The notes under the pieces were generated by a model. It worked only from the letters and a program-made list of their open reading frames with translations. It was not told the DNA's origin and made no database searches. From contig JAQYVW010000020.1 of the NCBI GenBank assembly GCA_030145325.1, positions 1 to 43,198 on the forward strand: 43,198 nucleotides of DNA. Reading direction: 5' to 3'. The stretch is from Desulfurivibrionaceae bacterium. Its GTDB lineage: Bacteria > Desulfobacterota > Desulfobulbia > Desulfobulbales > UBA5123. Within the stretch, counting starts at the first letter, position 1; every line of letters starts with the position of its first letter. Of the stretch, positions 13,664-20,408 are shown in pieces. Position numbers and translations under genes: made by a program.

Positions 13664-14797
13664 CTATAATTTCATGGGCATAATCAGACTTACAAAACCC
13701 GGTTCATTGTCGGCCCTAACAAGACAGGGAGTTTCATTGGAACTTATAAATGCCTTAACCGTATCGCTATTAAGTACTTGCAGAACATCAGCAAAATATT
13801 TGCCGTTAAAACCTAAATCCAATTCTTCACCTTCATAGACGATGGACAGCTCATCCTTGGCATTACCAATGTCCATATTTTGTGAAGACAAGATCAATTT
13901 ATTTTTTTCTATATGAAATTTAACCGCATTGTAACGATCTTCGGTGAAGAGGTTCATTCTTTTCATTGAATTTAAAAGTGCTTTTCTTTCTATCTCCACA
14001 AAGGTTTCATCGGCATTTCCATTTAAAATATTGCGGTAATCAGGAAAATCTCCGTTCATTAAGCGAATGATGAGAATAGCTTGGGCAGACTTTAAAACCG
14101 CCTGTTTTTCTTCAAAGGATATGGACACCGTATCCAGACCATCGCAGAATTTGCGCATTTCCATAATGCCTTTGCGAGGAATAAGAGTGGTGTTATTTAT
14201 TTCTAGATTAGCAAGATCTTCACCTCTTTCCAGTTCCATCATGGACAACCGATGTCCATCGGTGGAGACCATCCTAATAAAATTCTTATCGCCGTCTCTG
14301 ACCTCTTTTTCCACCAGAATACCGGCCAGGTTATATTGACTCTCCCCTTCTGCAGCAACCGAGAAAATGGTTTTATCGATGAGTTCGTTTATTAAGGCTC
14401 CATCAATGGCAACCAGAGATGCTTCGTTATATTCCGGGAAAGAAGGAAATTCATCTGCTTCCATTCCAGCAAGATTATAGCTGCTTGAATCAGCAGTTAT
14501 TTTAACCCAGTTATTATCAAGGCATTCCAGATGGATTAGATCAGCACTTGATTCTCTAACAATCTCAAATAGTTTTTTAGCGGGCATGGTTATGGAACCA
14601 CTGTCCATGATCTCGGCAGGAATGGTGTAGCGGATCCCAACTTCGAGATCTGTACCGGTAACAATGATGGCATCGTTGGATGTTTCAACCAGAACGTTGC
14701 TTAGAATGGCAATGGTCCCTTTTTTGCCGGTGACGTTTTGCAGGGAGGAAAGTGCTGACAGAAAATCTTCTCGAGAAACGTTAATGATCATCGCCAT
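13664..14797 (-). CDS. dnaN: DNA polymerase III subunit beta (sliding clamp)
   Basis: 377 residues with the three-domain sliding-clamp layout: ISREDF-like start (INVSREDFLSAL), the GTDLEVGIRY loop, the second-domain region VSTDGHRLSMMEL, NGDFPDYR, and a C-terminal LIMPMKL ending typical of DnaN. The ring dimer tethers DNA polymerase III to DNA. It is the first gene of the minus-strand run towards gyrB, gyrA and gpsA. dnaA, which usually lies directly upstream, is missing; instead an AT-rich gap and a divergent mreB-like gene are found. An AGAGG ribosome site precedes the ATG. A second ATG two codons later is a weaker alternative. Confidence 0.98.
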   Translation of the reverse strand: MAMIINVSREDFLSALSSLQNVTGKKGTIAILSNVLVETSNDAIIVTGTDLEVGIRYTIPAEIMDSGSITMPAKKLFEIVRESSADLIHLECLDNNWVKITADSSSYNLAGMEADEFPSFPEYNEASLVAIDGALINELIDKTIFSVAAEGESQYNLAGILVEKEVRDGDKNFIRMVSTDGHRLSMMELERGEDLANLEINNTTLIPRKGIMEMRKFCDGLDTVSISFEEKQAVLKSAQAILIIRLMNGDFPDYRNILNGNADETFVEIERKALLNSMKRMNLFTEDRYNAVKFHIEKNKLILSSQNMDIGNAKDELSIVYEGEELDLGFNGKYFADVLQVLNSDTVKAFISSNETPCLVRADNEPGFVSLIMPMKL

Positions 14798-14845
14798 ACA
14801 GAGAGCCTCTTTTAAATAAGTTTTTTTTAAAGAAGTTAACTTATT

Positions 14846-14883
14846 ATTATAAGCAGTGTTAGTATGTTTATAACATACTTAAC
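14846..14883 (-). promoter_or_regulatory. Candidate dnaN promoter with overlapping palindromic operator
   Basis: On the minus strand TATAAT (14851-14846) lies about 50 bases before the dnaN start. The expected -35 area is occupied by a palindrome, GTATGTT-TAT-AACATAC (14862-14878), extended by GTTA and TTAAC flanks. No good TTGACA is present, so either the promoter is weak and activator- or repressor-controlled, or the palindrome is itself a binding site. Which protein would bind is unknown. Confidence 0.45.
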
Positions 14884-15304
14884 GCTTTGATATTTAAGAT
14901 AAACTTATTAAATACGGTGGTGGTAGTAAAATAGGGAAAAAAAGCAAATTAGAGTTATCAACAGCTTTTAAAAGTTGAACAAACATCTTTTGGCTGGGTA
15001 ACGTTTAAAAGCTCTATTTTCTCCTTTGCTAAAGCTTATTAAATATATAAGAATATCAAATATTTAAAAAAGGAAAGATACCCTATATTTATTTATCATC
15101 CAAGATAGTGTAAAAAGGGGAAAAATTCAATCATTTTAAGGAAAAGAGCCAGGTAGATACCTTAAAAAAAAAGTACTTAAAATGAGCTTTCGGGAATGTG
15201 GATATTTTATCGTATTTAGAGTATTTGTGGGGGGCCCCGATTGGGCTTATGATAACATAATAAAATATAATATTAACCAATAATATCAATAGGTTATTTC
15301 TGTA
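14884..15304. other. AT-rich divergent intergenic region with DnaA-box-like sites
   Basis: This gene-free stretch between dnaN and the mreB-like gene is strongly AT-rich, with several runs of A and T. It contains TTATCAACA at 14955-14963 (one mismatch to the DnaA box TTATCCACA) and TGTGGATAT at 15197-15205 (one mismatch, opposite strand). Neither a cluster of boxes nor a dnaA gene is present, so an origin is possible but unproven. It must also hold the mreB-like gene's promoter. Confidence 0.4.
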
Positions 15305-16396
15305 ATGGGTGTACTATCAGGTAAGAGCGGCAAGGCCAACAGGTATAAAAAGAAAAAGAAGGAGCCGCTGGCACAACCTTCACCTCGGCGAAATGGTTTT
15401 TTATGTAAAAATATGGCCATGGATCTGGGAACTGCCAACACTCTTATTTTTCTGAAAGGAGAAGGGTTGGTTCTTCAGGAACCTTCAGTGGTAGCTTATA
15501 ATATTCACACCATGGAAGTGTTGGCGGTTGGTAATGAGGCAAAAAGTTACATAGGGCGCACTCCCCTCAATATTAAGGTGGTGAGGCCTTTGGCAAGTGG
15601 CGTAATTGAGGATATGGAAATAACCCAGGCGATGATTCGTGAATTTTTCGCCAAGGTTCAAAAGATGGGCCGGTTGCTCAAACCCAAGGCGGTAGTCTGC
15701 GTTCCGGCCGGGATTAGCAAGTTGGAGGAAAAAGCGGTTGTAAAGGCCGCTTCAGAGTCTGGGATAGGTAAACTTTTTCTCATTGAGGAGCCTATTGCGG
15801 CTGCCATCGGCGCTGGTTTAGATATTGACCGTAATCGCGGTCAGATGGTGGTTAATATAGGCGGTGGGATCACCGATATTGCTGTCTTAAGTCTATCTTC
15901 GGTGGCTTACAGCGATAACATTCGTGTTGGTGGTGATACCATGAGCAGGAAGTTAAAGGAGCATATCCTTAGCAAGCACACCATGCAGGTTGGCGAAAAC
16001 AGCGCCGAAGAGGCAAAGATAGCTGCTGGTTCAGCTGTCCCTATGCCAGGACTAACAGCTTTTACCGTTGCTGGTAAAGATGCGGCCACCAGTATTCCCA
16101 TGACTCTTAATCTACCCCCTGAAGAGATAAGGGAGGCTATCCAGGAGCCCATTGCCACCATTATCAAGGCAGTTCATGCCGCCCTTGATAAAACACTGCC
16201 AGACATGGTTACCGATATTGCCGAAGATGGCATCTATCTCACTGGGGGGGGAGCCATGTTGCGTGGGATCGGGTTGGCCATCGAAAAGGAAACAAACATC
16301 CCTTGTAATCTGTCCACCGAACCATTAACCACGGTGATCAATGGCACCGGTAAAACCTTGGAAAATTTAAAATTTTATAAAAAGGTTTTTATCTAG
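15305..16396 (+). CDS. MreB/Mbl-family actin-like protein with basic N-terminal extension
   Basis: 363 residues with the actin-fold motifs of MreB: phosphate 1 MDLGTANTLI (Asp40), VRPLASGVIEDMEITQAMI, KAVVCVPAGISKLEEKAV, IEEPIAAAIGAGLDI, phosphate 2 VNIGGGITDIAVLS and adenosine motif YLTGGGAMLRG. It would polymerise with ATP under the inner membrane and organise peptidoglycan synthesis. Usual MreB proteins begin close to the phosphate 1 motif after a short amphipathic helix; here about 36 residues precede it, including KKKKK and RR, giving a strongly basic tail that could bind membrane phospholipid or nucleic acid. mreC and mreD do not follow; a hydrolase gene does, abutting the stop. It is therefore probably a paralogue rather than the main MreB. 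The internal Met37 is an alternative start. Confidence 0.9.
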   Translation: MGVLSGKSGKANRYKKKKKEPLAQPSPRRNGFLCKNMAMDLGTANTLIFLKGEGLVLQEPSVVAYNIHTMEVLAVGNEAKSYIGRTPLNIKVVRPLASGVIEDMEITQAMIREFFAKVQKMGRLLKPKAVVCVPAGISKLEEKAVVKAASESGIGKLFLIEEPIAAAIGAGLDIDRNRGQMVVNIGGGITDIAVLSLSSVAYSDNIRVGGDTMSRKLKEHILSKHTMQVGENSAEEAKIAAGSAVPMPGLTAFTVAGKDAATSIPMTLNLPPEEIREAIQEPIATIIKAVHAALDKTLPDMVTDIAEDGIYLTGGGAMLRGIGLAIEKETNIPCNLSTEPLTTVINGTGKTLENLKFYKKVFI

Positions 16397-17533
16397 GTGA
16401 TGAATAACGGTAAGGAAAACAGTGCTGAATTGTTGCCGGAACCTCTTTCCCGGTTGCTTACGGAAGGGATTAAAGAGGGAGTTTTTCCAGGCGCGGCAGT
16501 AGGGATTGTTTGCGGTCCGCCGGGGGCCCGCAAACAATGGCAAGGATTTTACGGCCAACGTCAGCTTGTTCCGCAACCTCTTCCCCTAACCGTTGACACC
16601 TCATTTGACCTTGCTTCTCTGAGCAAACCTTTGGCCACCACCATGGCTATTATGGCCCTTATGGAAGATGGCCTTCTCTCTCTCCAGAGCACACTTCCCG
16701 AGTTGCTGGGGCGAGATGTCCCCACCGATAAAAAGAGTATAAATCTACGGCAACTTCTTGCCCACTGCAGCGGCCTTGTTGGTCATCGTCCCTATTTTTT
16801 GCACCTCCAGGACATCGCCCTAGCATCACGAAAGGAGGAGATGCTCCACTCTATTCTTAGCGAATCTTTAGTGGCAGCTCCTGGTAAGAAAGCAATCTAC
16901 AGTGATCTTGGTTTTATGCTGTTAGGCTTTATCGTTGCCGAAAAAAGCGGTCTGTCCTTGGATAGGTTTGTGCGGGAAAAGATATACCAGCCCCTTTCCC
17001 TTGAGGAAAACATGTTTTTTAGAGCGCTGGAGATGGGGTGGCCGCAGGGAAAAGTGGTGGCCGCTACTGAGGAGTGTCCATGGCGCAGCAGGGTGTTACA
17101 GGGGGAGGTTAGTGATGACAACAGTCATGTGTTGGGTGGCGTAGCCGGACAGGCTGGCCTGTTTGCTGATTTGGCAGCGGTACTGACTCTGACCACTCAT
17201 CTTCTTGACTGTTGGCAGGATCGTGCTGTTCACCCAGCCTTTGCGAACGATTTGCTGAAGAGTTTTTTTACTAAGGATGGGACTGTTATCGGCAGCAGTT
17301 GGGCTCTAGGTTTTGATACCCCTTCTCCGCAAGGCTCCTGCGCCGGCAAATATTTTCACCCCACCAGTGTCGGTCATCTAGGTTTCAGTGGCACCTCTTT
17401 TTGGATTGATCCCAGCAGGGATCTGGTGGTGGTTCTGCTCAGCAACCGCATCCATCCCAGTCGGGATAATAATAAAATAAAAGAATTCCGCCCCCGTTTT
17501 CATGATGCGGTAATAGAGGTTTTATGCTCTTAA
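16397..17533 (+). CDS. Serine hydrolase, beta-lactamase/class C penicillin-binding family
   Basis: 378 residues with the SxxK motif SLSK (Ser74, Lys77) in DLASLSKPLATTMA and a YSD in place of the class C YxN in AIYSDLGFMLLG. The C-terminal strand region around GHLGFSGTSFWIDP carries the HxG-like third motif. Proteins of this family act as D-alanyl-D-alanine carboxypeptidases, esterases or beta-lactamases. I see no signal peptide, so it may be cytoplasmic or use an unrecognised export route. Translation starts at GTG 16397, directly after the mreB-like stop, or at the ATG at 16400; either way it is coupled to the cytoskeletal gene. That coupling points to a cell-wall related role rather than antibiotic resistance, but this is inference. 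Confidence 0.85.
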   Translation: MMNNGKENSAELLPEPLSRLLTEGIKEGVFPGAAVGIVCGPPGARKQWQGFYGQRQLVPQPLPLTVDTSFDLASLSKPLATTMAIMALMEDGLLSLQSTLPELLGRDVPTDKKSINLRQLLAHCSGLVGHRPYFLHLQDIALASRKEEMLHSILSESLVAAPGKKAIYSDLGFMLLGFIVAEKSGLSLDRFVREKIYQPLSLEENMFFRALEMGWPQGKVVAATEECPWRSRVLQGEVSDDNSHVLGGVAGQAGLFADLAAVLTLTTHLLDCWQDRAVHPAFANDLLKSFFTKDGTVIGSSWALGFDTPSPQGSCAGKYFHPTSVGHLGFSGTSFWIDPSRDLVVVLLSNRIHPSRDNNKIKEFRPRFHDAVIEVLCS

Positions 17534-17541
17534 AAAAACTT

Positions 17542-18654
17542 CTAGCCGTGTTCTGGATAAAGGCGGAGAATGTCCTCTTGGTTAGCCCGCATAACCCCCT
17601 TCTCACTGATTAGGCCAGTAATTAAGCGAGCGGGGGTAACGTCAAAACCGTAATTTGCGGCCTGGCAGTTTAGCGGCGCGATGGAAACGCGCTCCTCCCC
17701 TCCTCCATCAGTCTGGCCGCTGACATAGCATATCTCTTCCCCTGATCTTTCCTCGATGGGGATATCCTTAATCCCGTCACAGATGGTCCAGTCAAAGGTT
17801 GAGGAGGGCAAGGCCACGTAGAAGGGAATCTGGTTATCATGCGCCGCTAATGCTTTTAGGTAGGTGCCGATCTTATTGGCCACATCACCACAGCGGGTAG
17901 TGCGGTCAGTGCCGACGATAACCAGATCCACCATTCCGTGCTGCATCAGGTGACCGCCAGTATTATCGGCAATCAGGGTATGTTTCACCCCTTCTTGGCC
18001 TAGTTCCCAGGCGGTGAGTTTGGCTCCCTGTAGCCAAGGCCTGGTTTCATCCACCCATACATGTACTGGGATGTCTGCAGCGTGGGCAGCGTAGATTGGG
18101 GCGGTGGCTGAGCCATAATCCACAAAGGCTAACCAGCCGGCATTACAGTGGGTGAGAATATTCACCGGCTCGCCGTTTTTTCTTTTACTTATTTCCTGGA
18201 TAATTTTAAGGCCATGTTCGCCGATTCGGCGGCAGAAGTCGGCATCCTCATCGGCAATGGCTTCTGCCTCCAGTAAGGCTCGTTGTTTTTTTTCTGGAAC
18301 CTCGACCTCGGTGGCCATGGCTTTTATCATTCTCTCAACCGCCCAGGCGAGATTACTGGCAGTGGGACGTGTTGCCTTTAAACAGGTAGCAGCATCACTG
18401 ATAAAGTTGTCGAAGTCTTTGCCATCATCGGGGGCGGTTATGGCTGCGCAATAGATACCGAAAGCGGCGGTGGCACCGATGAGTCCGGCACCTCGAACAT
18501 GCATTTCTCGGATTGCCGCTGCGAAATCAGCAACCGTGGCCAGATCCTCAAGCAGATAACGGTGAGGTAGTTGCCGTTGGTCGATAATTTGAACAATGCG
18601 CGGGTTATCAGGATGCAGGCGGATGGTTCGGCATGGTTGGCCGTTAACTTTCAT
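17542..18654 (-). CDS. mtnA: S-methyl-5-thioribose-1-phosphate isomerase
   Basis: 370 residues of the eIF2B-like sugar-phosphate isomerase family. Visible are MHVRGAGLIGATAAFG, the catalytic cysteine in ILTHCNAGWLA, VWVDETRPWLQGAKLTAWEL and the catalytic aspartate in VIVGTDRTT, followed by VANKIGTYLKALAAHDN. It converts methylthioribose-1-phosphate (or, in DHAP-shunt organisms, a 5-deoxyribose analogue) to the ribulose form. The 'CNAGWLA ... WVDETRP' variant differs from the Bacillus type 'CNTGALA ... YADETRP', so the exact substrate is uncertain. No other methionine-salvage gene lies nearby. The ATG is preceded by AGGA. It converges with the serine hydrolase gene, nine bases apart, and lies downstream of the GGDEF gene on the same strand. 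Confidence 0.92.
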   Translation of the reverse strand: MKVNGQPCRTIRLHPDNPRIVQIIDQRQLPHRYLLEDLATVADFAAAIREMHVRGAGLIGATAAFGIYCAAITAPDDGKDFDNFISDAATCLKATRPTASNLAWAVERMIKAMATEVEVPEKKQRALLEAEAIADEDADFCRRIGEHGLKIIQEISKRKNGEPVNILTHCNAGWLAFVDYGSATAPIYAAHAADIPVHVWVDETRPWLQGAKLTAWELGQEGVKHTLIADNTGGHLMQHGMVDLVIVGTDRTTRCGDVANKIGTYLKALAAHDNQIPFYVALPSSTFDWTICDGIKDIPIEERSGEEICYVSGQTDGGGEERVSIAPLNCQAANYGFDVTPARLITGLISEKGVMRANQEDILRLYPEHG

Positions 18655-18684: not shown

Positions 18685-18849
18685 TCAACCGAGGAGTTTG
18701 CTGATAAGAAAAAAAGATATGAGACCCATACCGATGGAACCATAGATAAGCAGTCAGGGGACGCAGTTGTCTTCCTGTTTCCGTTTTACCCAAAAAAAGA
18801 AGATGAGGACGGAGAGGCCGGAGACAAGAAAGGGAAGTAAATGACGCAC
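18685..18849 (-). CDS. Candidate two-helix membrane mini-protein with in-frame TGA (possible selenoprotein)
   Basis: A GTG at 18849 with AGAGG upstream opens a frame of 54 codons ending at TGA 18687-18685, interrupted by one TGA at codon 32 (18756-18754). Before it lies one hydrophobic segment (LLPFLVSGLSVLIFFFW) and a charged turn KRKQEDNCVP; after it, in the same frame, a second hydrophobic segment (LLIYGSIGMGLISFFLI). Reading TGA as selenocysteine gives a CVPU redox-type motif. Twenty bases after the TGA a stem-loop can form (GGTTCCAT, loop CGGT, ATGGGTCT with one mismatch and two wobbles), in the range usual for bacterial SECIS elements. Otherwise it is a broken gene in which TGG became TGA. 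It lies between the GGDEF gene and mtnA on the same strand. I recognise no named family. Confidence 0.4.
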
Positions 18850-18895
18850 GTTATTCCTCTGGGCGGTTTTTTTAAGCAGGCCGTAGCCATATTGT

Positions 18896-20077
18896 TTAAA
18901 GAGCGATCACCTGATTACGGCCCTTATTTTTGGCAAGATACATGGCCCTGTCCGCTTTGGCCACCAGTCCTTCAAATGATATGGAATCATCGTTGAAGGT
19001 GGCAATACCGATACTGGCGGTAACTTGCTTACCGTCAATTTCGGTGAACAGGGTGCCGGCAATGGCGCGGCAGATTTGTTCCGCCAAGGTAATGGCCAGT
19101 TTTTTGTCGGAGTTAAGGAGGAGAATGGTAAACTCTTCTCCGCCGTAACGGGCGACCATATCACTGCTGCGGATGTTATCGCGGAGGATAGTAGCTACCT
19201 TGATAAGTACCTTGTCACCAATGGGATGACCGAAGAGATCATTGACCATTTTGAAATGATCGATATCGCAGAGCAGCATGCTGAAGACCCCGCCGTAGCG
19301 GCGAGCTCTATCCACCTCGTCGATGAGCCGTTCATTAAAGAAGCGGCGGTTATAGAGTTCGGTAAGGTCGTCGCGGATTGATTCGCGCAAGGTTCGGGAG
19401 TAAACCTTGGCGTTGTTGATCGCCCCCCCCACCGCGTGGGCGACGATGGACAAGAGGGTGATATTATTCATGGTGATGGAGTTTTTCGAAGTAAAGTTAT
19501 CAACTACCATCACCCCTTCTGTGCTGTCTGAGTCCTGTTTAGCAAAAACCTCGCATTCTTGGCACATCTCTTCTTTCTTGACGCAGTCTTCAAGGGGGAT
19601 ATTGCCACATTTGGTACCCGGCACCAGCCAGCAGCGGAGCCATTTTTTGCCGTAGGCTGGACAATCTGTTTTGGAACATTTCTTGATATGCCAGCAGGAG
19701 AGGCGCTTTTTGTTGACGATGGGGATCAGCGCGAAATCCTCTAGGCCCATTTCTTTTACAAAGGGGTCGGTGGGCATTTCGGAGGAGAGGAGCGGAAAAC
19801 CGGTAATGAGCGGTTTGGTAAAGAGACAGTTGCCAGCCAAAGGGATTTCCAGGGAGCTGATCATGCCGGGATCAAAGCCCTTGCAGAGTTTTCCTTGTAA
19901 TACCCCTTTACGGTGTTTGACGAAAAAAAGACCCACCCGGTCAAAGCCAAAGATATCGGCAGTGAGGTTGACGAAGCGCTCCTCAATGGTATCGAGATCC
20001 ATTTCCTCGTAGACCAGAGAGAGCATTTCCAGTAGAGCAAGTTCTTTGGTGTTGGGCGAAATTTCCTGTTGAGACAT
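18896..20077 (-). CDS. Diguanylate cyclase: GAF domain with eight-cysteine insert plus GGDEF
   Basis: The chosen ATG at 20077 follows GGAGG by seven bases and gives 393 residues; the open frame upstream runs through a tRNA gene and is not coding. Residues 15-200 form a GAF-type sensor, with strand ALIPI (116-120) and its partner EGVMVVDN (187-194) separated by a cysteine-rich insert (Cys 128, 134, 139, 149, 157, 165, 172, 175). The GGDEF domain (about 230-393) has DDLTELYNRRFF, an allosteric I-site RSSD (303-306) and the active-site loop GGEEF (312-316), so it should make cyclic di-GMP from GTP and be feedback-inhibited. No membrane segment is seen, so sensing is cytoplasmic. The insert could bind a metal, an iron-sulfur cluster or respond to redox state. 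Confidence 0.92.
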   Translation of the reverse strand: MSQQEISPNTKELALLEMLSLVYEEMDLDTIEERFVNLTADIFGFDRVGLFFVKHRKGVLQGKLCKGFDPGMISSLEIPLAGNCLFTKPLITGFPLLSSEMPTDPFVKEMGLEDFALIPIVNKKRLSCWHIKKCSKTDCPAYGKKWLRCWLVPGTKCGNIPLEDCVKKEEMCQECEVFAKQDSDSTEGVMVVDNFTSKNSITMNNITLLSIVAHAVGGAINNAKVYSRTLRESIRDDLTELYNRRFFNERLIDEVDRARRYGGVFSMLLCDIDHFKMVNDLFGHPIGDKVLIKVATILRDNIRSSDMVARYGGEEFTILLLNSDKKLAITLAEQICRAIAGTLFTEIDGKQVTASIGIATFNDDSISFEGLVAKADRAMYLAKNKGRNQVIAL

Positions 20078-20163
20078 TTTGTCTTGCCTCCGTTGACCTT
20101 GAAAAGGTGTTCTTAAATGGCTTGGACATGGTATGTGATACCTTTTCTCTCCCGTTTCGCCAA

Positions 20164-20199
20164 TAAAAAAAAAGGATCTACCTTTTAAGGGTAGATCCT
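20164..20199 (-). terminator. Rho-independent terminator downstream of tRNA-Leu
   Basis: On the minus strand AGGATCTACC and GGTAGATCCT form a perfect ten-base stem around a short loop, followed by a run of nine T. It lies ten bases after the CCA end of the tRNA and isolates the GGDEF gene from tRNA transcription. Confidence 0.92.
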
Positions 20200-20208
20200 C
20201 ATTGTTTT

Positions 20209-20295
20209 TGGTGCCGGAGGTCGGAATCGAACCGACACGGGGTTGCCCCCGCGGGATTTTGAGTCCCGTGCGTCTACCAGTTTCACCACTCCGGC
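20209..20295 (-). tRNA. tRNA-Leu (anticodon CAA)
   Basis: The minus strand folds as a class II tRNA of 87 bases, including an encoded CCA. The acceptor stem is GCCGGAG with CTCCGGC; the anticodon arm CGGGA-CTCAAAA-TCCCG gives anticodon CAA, which reads UUG leucine codons. A long variable arm (CGGGGGCAACCCCG) and the T arm with GGTTCGATTCC follow. It is flanked by its own terminator on one side and pgsA on the other. Confidence 0.97.
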
Positions 20296-20408
20296 ATAAT
20301 ATGCTGAGGCGTTCGTTAGCCCCGTATTTCTTACCGCGCAACTATAGAGATCATCACTATCTCTGTCAAGCAGAAATACTTCATGATTTGTTCTCTTTCG
20401 CTCTGTGG

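Follow-up and report, generated by a model that had tools for sequence, protein, structure and literature searches.

Bacterial selenoproteins that carry a CxxU motif, such as GrdA and the SelW-like, AhpD-like and DUF1858 proteins (Table 1 of PMC13188914), combine a UGA codon decoded as selenocysteine (Sec) with a hairpin located inside the gene, and have Cys in place of Sec in a few relatives. All of these features recur in the gene described here, which very likely represents a real and conserved family of selenoproteins, but unlike the known CxxU selenoproteins this family has members of 54 residues, with two membrane helices and almost no Cys homologues. Its nearly exclusive use of Sec is a likeness to GrdA, which has been cited as the only selenoprotein known without Cys homologues (PMC12013277); GrdA, however, is soluble and forms part of an energy-conserving enzyme, and no sequence relation between it and the family was seen. 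The first helical hairpin of DsbB has the same order of parts (helix, CxxC-type motif, helix), but DsbB itself comprises four helices with two pairs of Cys, and its motif is periplasmic, whereas the family has two helices, one CxxU and a loop predicted to be cytoplasmic. Accessory proteins of the CydS/CydX type are likewise very short membrane proteins, but without a CxxU pair. The bSECIS of Escherichia coli fdhF presents a GGUCU loop on a short stem about 18 nucleotides (nt) after the UGA. The hairpin most likely used by the gene described here has the same GGUCU loop, located 27 nt after the UGA on a shorter and weaker stem, and the family differs from fdhF in that a second, overlapping hairpin takes over in other subfamilies.

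The gene is located on the minus strand (18688-18849) of the window, which is the whole stretch of 43,198 nucleotides analysed from a Desulfurivibrionaceae bacterium (contig JAQYVW010000020.1). A preliminary description of this DNA had proposed a 54-codon frame with a GTG start and an AGAGG site, leaving the strand unstated; translation confirmed the frame, with its GTG at 18849-18847, its final stop TGA at 18687-18685, and the ribosome-binding site AGAGG (18856-18860, minus strand) 6 nt 5' of the GTG. Two congeneric genomes have the same GTG plus an [A/G]AGG site, and the plus strand at the same coordinates yielded no gene on translation. Also confirmed in translation was a single in-frame TGA (18756-18754, minus strand) at codon 32, flanked by hydrophobic helices and forming, if read as Sec, the motif Cys-Val-Pro-Sec (C29-V-P-U32); the full product is VRHLLPFLVSGLSVLIFFFWVKRKQEDNCVPULLIYGSIGMGLISFFLISKLLG, with Sec at residue 32. 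The first transmembrane helix is predicted from hydrophobicity at about residues 6-21 (18787-18834, minus strand), and the second (residues 32-53; 18691-18756, minus strand) is predicted to start at the Sec and contains G37, G40 and G42. SelB and the Sec-tRNA would decode the UGA at codon 32 as Sec, directed by a hairpin just 3' of it within the coding sequence, and the second UGA, after codon 54, would serve as the terminator. The reported position between a diguanylate cyclase gene and mtnA was borne out, all three genes being co-directional: the diguanylate cyclase frame (18896-20341) ends 46 bases 5' of the selenoprotein gene, and the mtnA-like gene for S-methyl-5-thioribose-1-phosphate isomerase (17542-18654, minus strand) lies 30 nt 3' of it. 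A tRNA gene (20212-20295, minus strand) falls within the 5' part by which the diguanylate cyclase frame was mechanically extended, indicating that the true start of the diguanylate cyclase gene is further downstream.

Clear homologues were found in most of the 58 related genomes searched, nearly all with exactly one internal TGA. When aligned (with U written as C), C29 and residue 32 are invariant, and M1, Y36, G40 and G42 nearly so. A profile search matched 206 of the 243 genomes of the class Desulfobulbia, including 137 of the 149 good ones, and more than 200 genomes have TGA at codon 32. A degenerate DNA pattern that includes the TGA, searched in one genome per GTDB species, identified 93 stretches, and among the matches listed all 80 of 80 encode the family. 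Carriers include Desulfobulbus elongatus, D. rhabdoformis, D. alkaliphilus, Desulfopila, Desulfofustis, Desulfoprunum, Desulforhopalus, Desulfogranum and Desulfurivibrio, and divergent copies are labelled Desulfovibrio, Pseudodesulfovibrio, Desulfonatronospira and the like. A second profile, built following the divergent Desulfovibrio-type copies, matched 59 of 297 genomes in a second class, and these copies too have TGA. Three TGA-containing matches in one genome of the second class (G902) and two in another (G824) suggest paralogues in some lineages. A copy almost like those of Desulfobulbia is present on a 1.39 Mb contig labelled Candidatus Altiarchaeales archaeon IMC4, for which a mislabelled or mis-binned bacterial contig is a likelier origin than an archaeal gene. 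A plasmid search gave no match to the family.

Two candidate insertion hairpins overlap 3' of the TGA, whose first base is numbered 0 here. H1 pairs positions 15-22 with 27-34 around an NGGU loop, and H2 pairs positions 24-29 with 35-40 around a GGUCU loop. In the window, H2 (GGUAUG stem, GGUCU loop, CAUAUC stem; 18716-18732, minus strand) is the likely bSECIS, and H1 (loop CGGU; 18722-18741, minus strand) is weak. The bSECIS consensus (Fig. 2 of PMC13188914) calls for a loop of 3-9 nt with G in the first two loop positions, a stem of 4-16 bp, a distance of 16-37 nt from the UGA, and a folding energy of -7.5 kcal/mol or lower. The geometry of both hairpins fits this consensus (5-nt loop GGUCU, 6 bp and 27 nt for H2; 4-nt loop NGGU, up to 8 bp and 20 nt for H1). 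The energy limit is missed in the window, where H2 reaches -3.2 kcal/mol and the local 33-nt fold -5.5 kcal/mol, and most H1-type relatives are within it (mean about -9.5 kcal/mol). Compared with synonymous shuffles, the local fold of the window has no extra stability (z 0.12), and the same test is negative for the window's clade and positive for the family (mean z -1.28). An Rfam scan matched only a tRNA.

Covariation is evident for both hairpins. When sequences are grouped by their best hairpin, which inflates pairing counts, 98% of cells are paired among 61 distinct H1-type sequences, with 66 double changes versus 22 in shuffles (0 of 500), and 100% among 21 H2-type sequences, with double changes at three of the six pairs; mutual information was therefore run without grouping as a check, and placed the H1 pair 21-28 as the top coupled column pair and pair 17-32 within the top ten. 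The most telling H1 pair connects two Gly codons at their third positions and occurs as C-G (32), A-U (18), U-A (4) and G-C (2), so that its changes are invisible to the protein. H2 is identical in most of the 21 divergent relatives, the compensatory changes being those of two members (L044 and L161), and its clade retains the codons GGT, CTC and ATA, which are often of low local usage. RNAalifold found no structure in all 49 sequences taken together, because the hairpin register differs between subfamilies, a difficulty that grouping resolved. Synonymous divergence (pS) is 0.41 in the hairpin part versus 0.58 before it and 0.63 after it. Both registers are present in the second class (L231-L242) as well, suggesting that the position of the insertion signal in this coding sequence has shifted on more than one occasion.

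Which of the two hairpins acts in the window gene has to be weighed. The preliminary description had named the CGGU stem-loop, correctly placing the start of its loop 20 nt after the TGA, and had proposed a covariance check; in most other subfamilies, H1 covaries strongly. The window can also form H1, at about -2.5 kcal/mol, but positions 17/32, the pair that covaries elsewhere, are a U.U mismatch there, and many close relatives, the window's congeners among them, pair H1 poorly and yet form H2 perfectly with rare codons. Insertion directed by H1 in the window gene is therefore rather doubtful; the window fits the H2 type, and H2 is most likely the hairpin that is used.

The alignment-based AlphaFold2 model has helices at residues 4-23 and 32-53, the second beginning at the Sec, and is of low confidence (pLDDT 67). 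The mean number of Lys and Arg residues is 2.5 in the loop versus 0.6 and 0.8 at the ends, which, under the positive-inside rule, would place the CxxU pair on the cytoplasmic side; the protein is predicted to be an inner-membrane two-helix hairpin with CxxU at the cytoplasmic face. No solved structure was matched by a fold search of the PDB or by a sequence search. Because of the CxxU motif and the Sec itself, a thiol/selenol redox role at the membrane is probable, in which Cys29 and Sec32 would cycle between the thiol/selenol and selenenyl-sulfide states. The product may be a membrane-docked redox relay, or else a redox subunit, the glycine-rich helix 2 of which would pack against a putative partner. 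It is improbable that the protein is a half-size relative of DsbB, moving electrons between the CxxU pair and membrane quinone: the order of its parts is that of the first half of DsbB, and one of the 51 members matches a DsbB model at E 5e-4 and one matches Pfam DsbB at 0.07, but there are only two helices, the second Cys pair is absent, the loop is predicted to be cytoplasmic rather than periplasmic, nearly all members are without a profile match, and there is no fold match. Identity with CydS was also considered but not adopted: helix 1 of the window protein reaches 18.4 bits where the cut-off is 25, and no other member gives this match. No cytochrome bd genes were recognised beside the gene among the conserved gene clusters looked at.

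The proximity of mtnA could suggest a joint role with MtnA in the salvage of methylthioadenosine, such as the redox handling of methylthio compounds. In 33 of 49 loci, the next gene downstream, in the same orientation, is mtnA; these loci represent several families and include both of the Cys relatives, so that the neighbour named in the preliminary description is a frequent one; it is not universal, however, for in other families the selenoprotein gene follows typA/bipA (11 of the 49 loci, and 43 of 80 loci in a second set), and elsewhere its neighbours are LysR, MazG, UspA or metallo-hydrolase genes. With mtnA in some families and typA in others, the context fixes no pathway, and a specific partnership with MtnA is improbable. 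The few stable but varied contexts indicate that the selenoprotein gene behaves as a one-gene unit. The window also has dnaN, mreB, a class C beta-lactamase-like gene and mtnA together (13664-18654), and portions of this cluster also accompany the selenoprotein gene in several relatives.

The genes for Sec synthesis and insertion, which the preliminary description had proposed to look for, are all present in the source genome: selA (626 bits), selB (382 bits), selC encoding tRNA-Sec (74.9 bits) and selD (337 bits), the last with an in-frame TGA of its own. One genus (g277, four genomes) and one further genome (G498) have no convincing tRNA-Sec or SelB, and the selenoprotein gene is likewise absent from them; in genome G478, a SelB remnant is interrupted by a stop. 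The genus g284 (G480, G522, G538 and G539) possesses the TGA-containing gene, with tRNA-Sec in two of the four draft genomes; a full SelB was not found in any of these four drafts, which counts against the Sec reading and is possibly due to a missing contig or to a diverged or split SelB. The two Cys-encoding members (L050 and L052) are in genomes that retain SelB (G017 and G004), and thus the replacement of Sec by Cys was not preceded by a loss of the Sec machinery.

Codon 32 itself was read by hand in 51 members, the window included, with consistent start and stop positions: it is TGA in 49 and TGC in two, both of family f2, so that every aligned member has Sec or Cys at the position where the preliminary description had proposed to look for them. 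Cys is the sole alternative to Sec found, and neither Trp nor Arg occurs at codon 32 among the homologues read. Across 292 pairs of relatives at moderate distance, pN/pS amounts to about 0.25-0.26 on the 5' side of the TGA, to 0.25 over the first 14 codons on its 3' side and to 0.33 in the remainder; the frame beyond the TGA is thus conserved and under purifying selection. Selection being equal before and after the TGA, neither a nonsense mutation nor an ordinary stop explains the frame. The preliminary description had judged two helices around a TGA unlikely by chance, a view strengthened by these ratios and by homologues with the same single TGA throughout the order, from which the frame appears far beyond chance. 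The UGA at codon 32 is almost certainly read as Sec, as judged from these comparisons of sequence. It is very improbable that the TGA functions as a genuine stop codon with some read-through by an ordinary tRNA, or that only the 31-residue N-terminal peptide matters: TGA does also terminate the same gene, and the support for Sec is drawn from sequence, but pN/pS is the same on both sides of the TGA, the sole replacement is Cys and not Trp, covarying hairpins lie inside the distance range for Sec insertion, and the gene is missing where selC and SelB have been lost. A nonsense mutation of recent date in an ordinary two-helix protein, whether TGG-to-TGA, the alternative put forward in the preliminary description, or CGA-to-TGA, would look identical in a single sequence, with the frame running on past the TGA, but has next to no probability left, being refuted by conservation of the TGA in more than 200 genomes, by the lack of Trp or Arg in the homologues read, and by purifying selection 3' of the TGA.

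The family appears to be an uncatalogued one within the catalogues compared, and an earlier mention elsewhere is possible. No model of Pfam or NCBIfam 20.0 matched the window protein above its cut-off, other members having scattered weak matches, and the NCBIfam selenoprotein models gave no match to the family. The 119 prokaryotic selenoprotein families of a 2026 review (PMC13188914), compared by their description in the main text, include no two-helix CxPU entry. The deep-Sep study tested genomes of Desulfobulbia and reported nine new families, none of which fits as described in its main text; the study itself notes that selenoproteins without Cys homologues may be filtered out.

The gene is thus found in about nine-tenths of the good genomes of a whole class and has seemingly been missed so far, because it is very short, interrupted by TGA and almost without Cys homologues, and, in the window's clade, because its hairpin is too weak for the bSECIS model. 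A bolder proposal, speculative as a whole, is that the product is a nearly Sec-obligatory core membrane microprotein, conserved in two classes of sulfur bacteria and working as a minimal thiol-selenol redox device that is linked to the membrane (through quinone or a respiratory complex), and that its mRNA has changed repeatedly from one to the other of two overlapping Sec-insertion hairpins, which exclude each other, while the protein remained unchanged. The finding suggests that the selenoproteomes of sulfur bacteria are still short of core members. Because Sec is so strictly preferred to Cys in the family, a protein of 54 residues would allow a direct test of the old question of why Sec is retained, and the presence of two alternative hairpins in a single conserved coding sequence constitutes a natural experiment on the evolution of the Sec-insertion signal.
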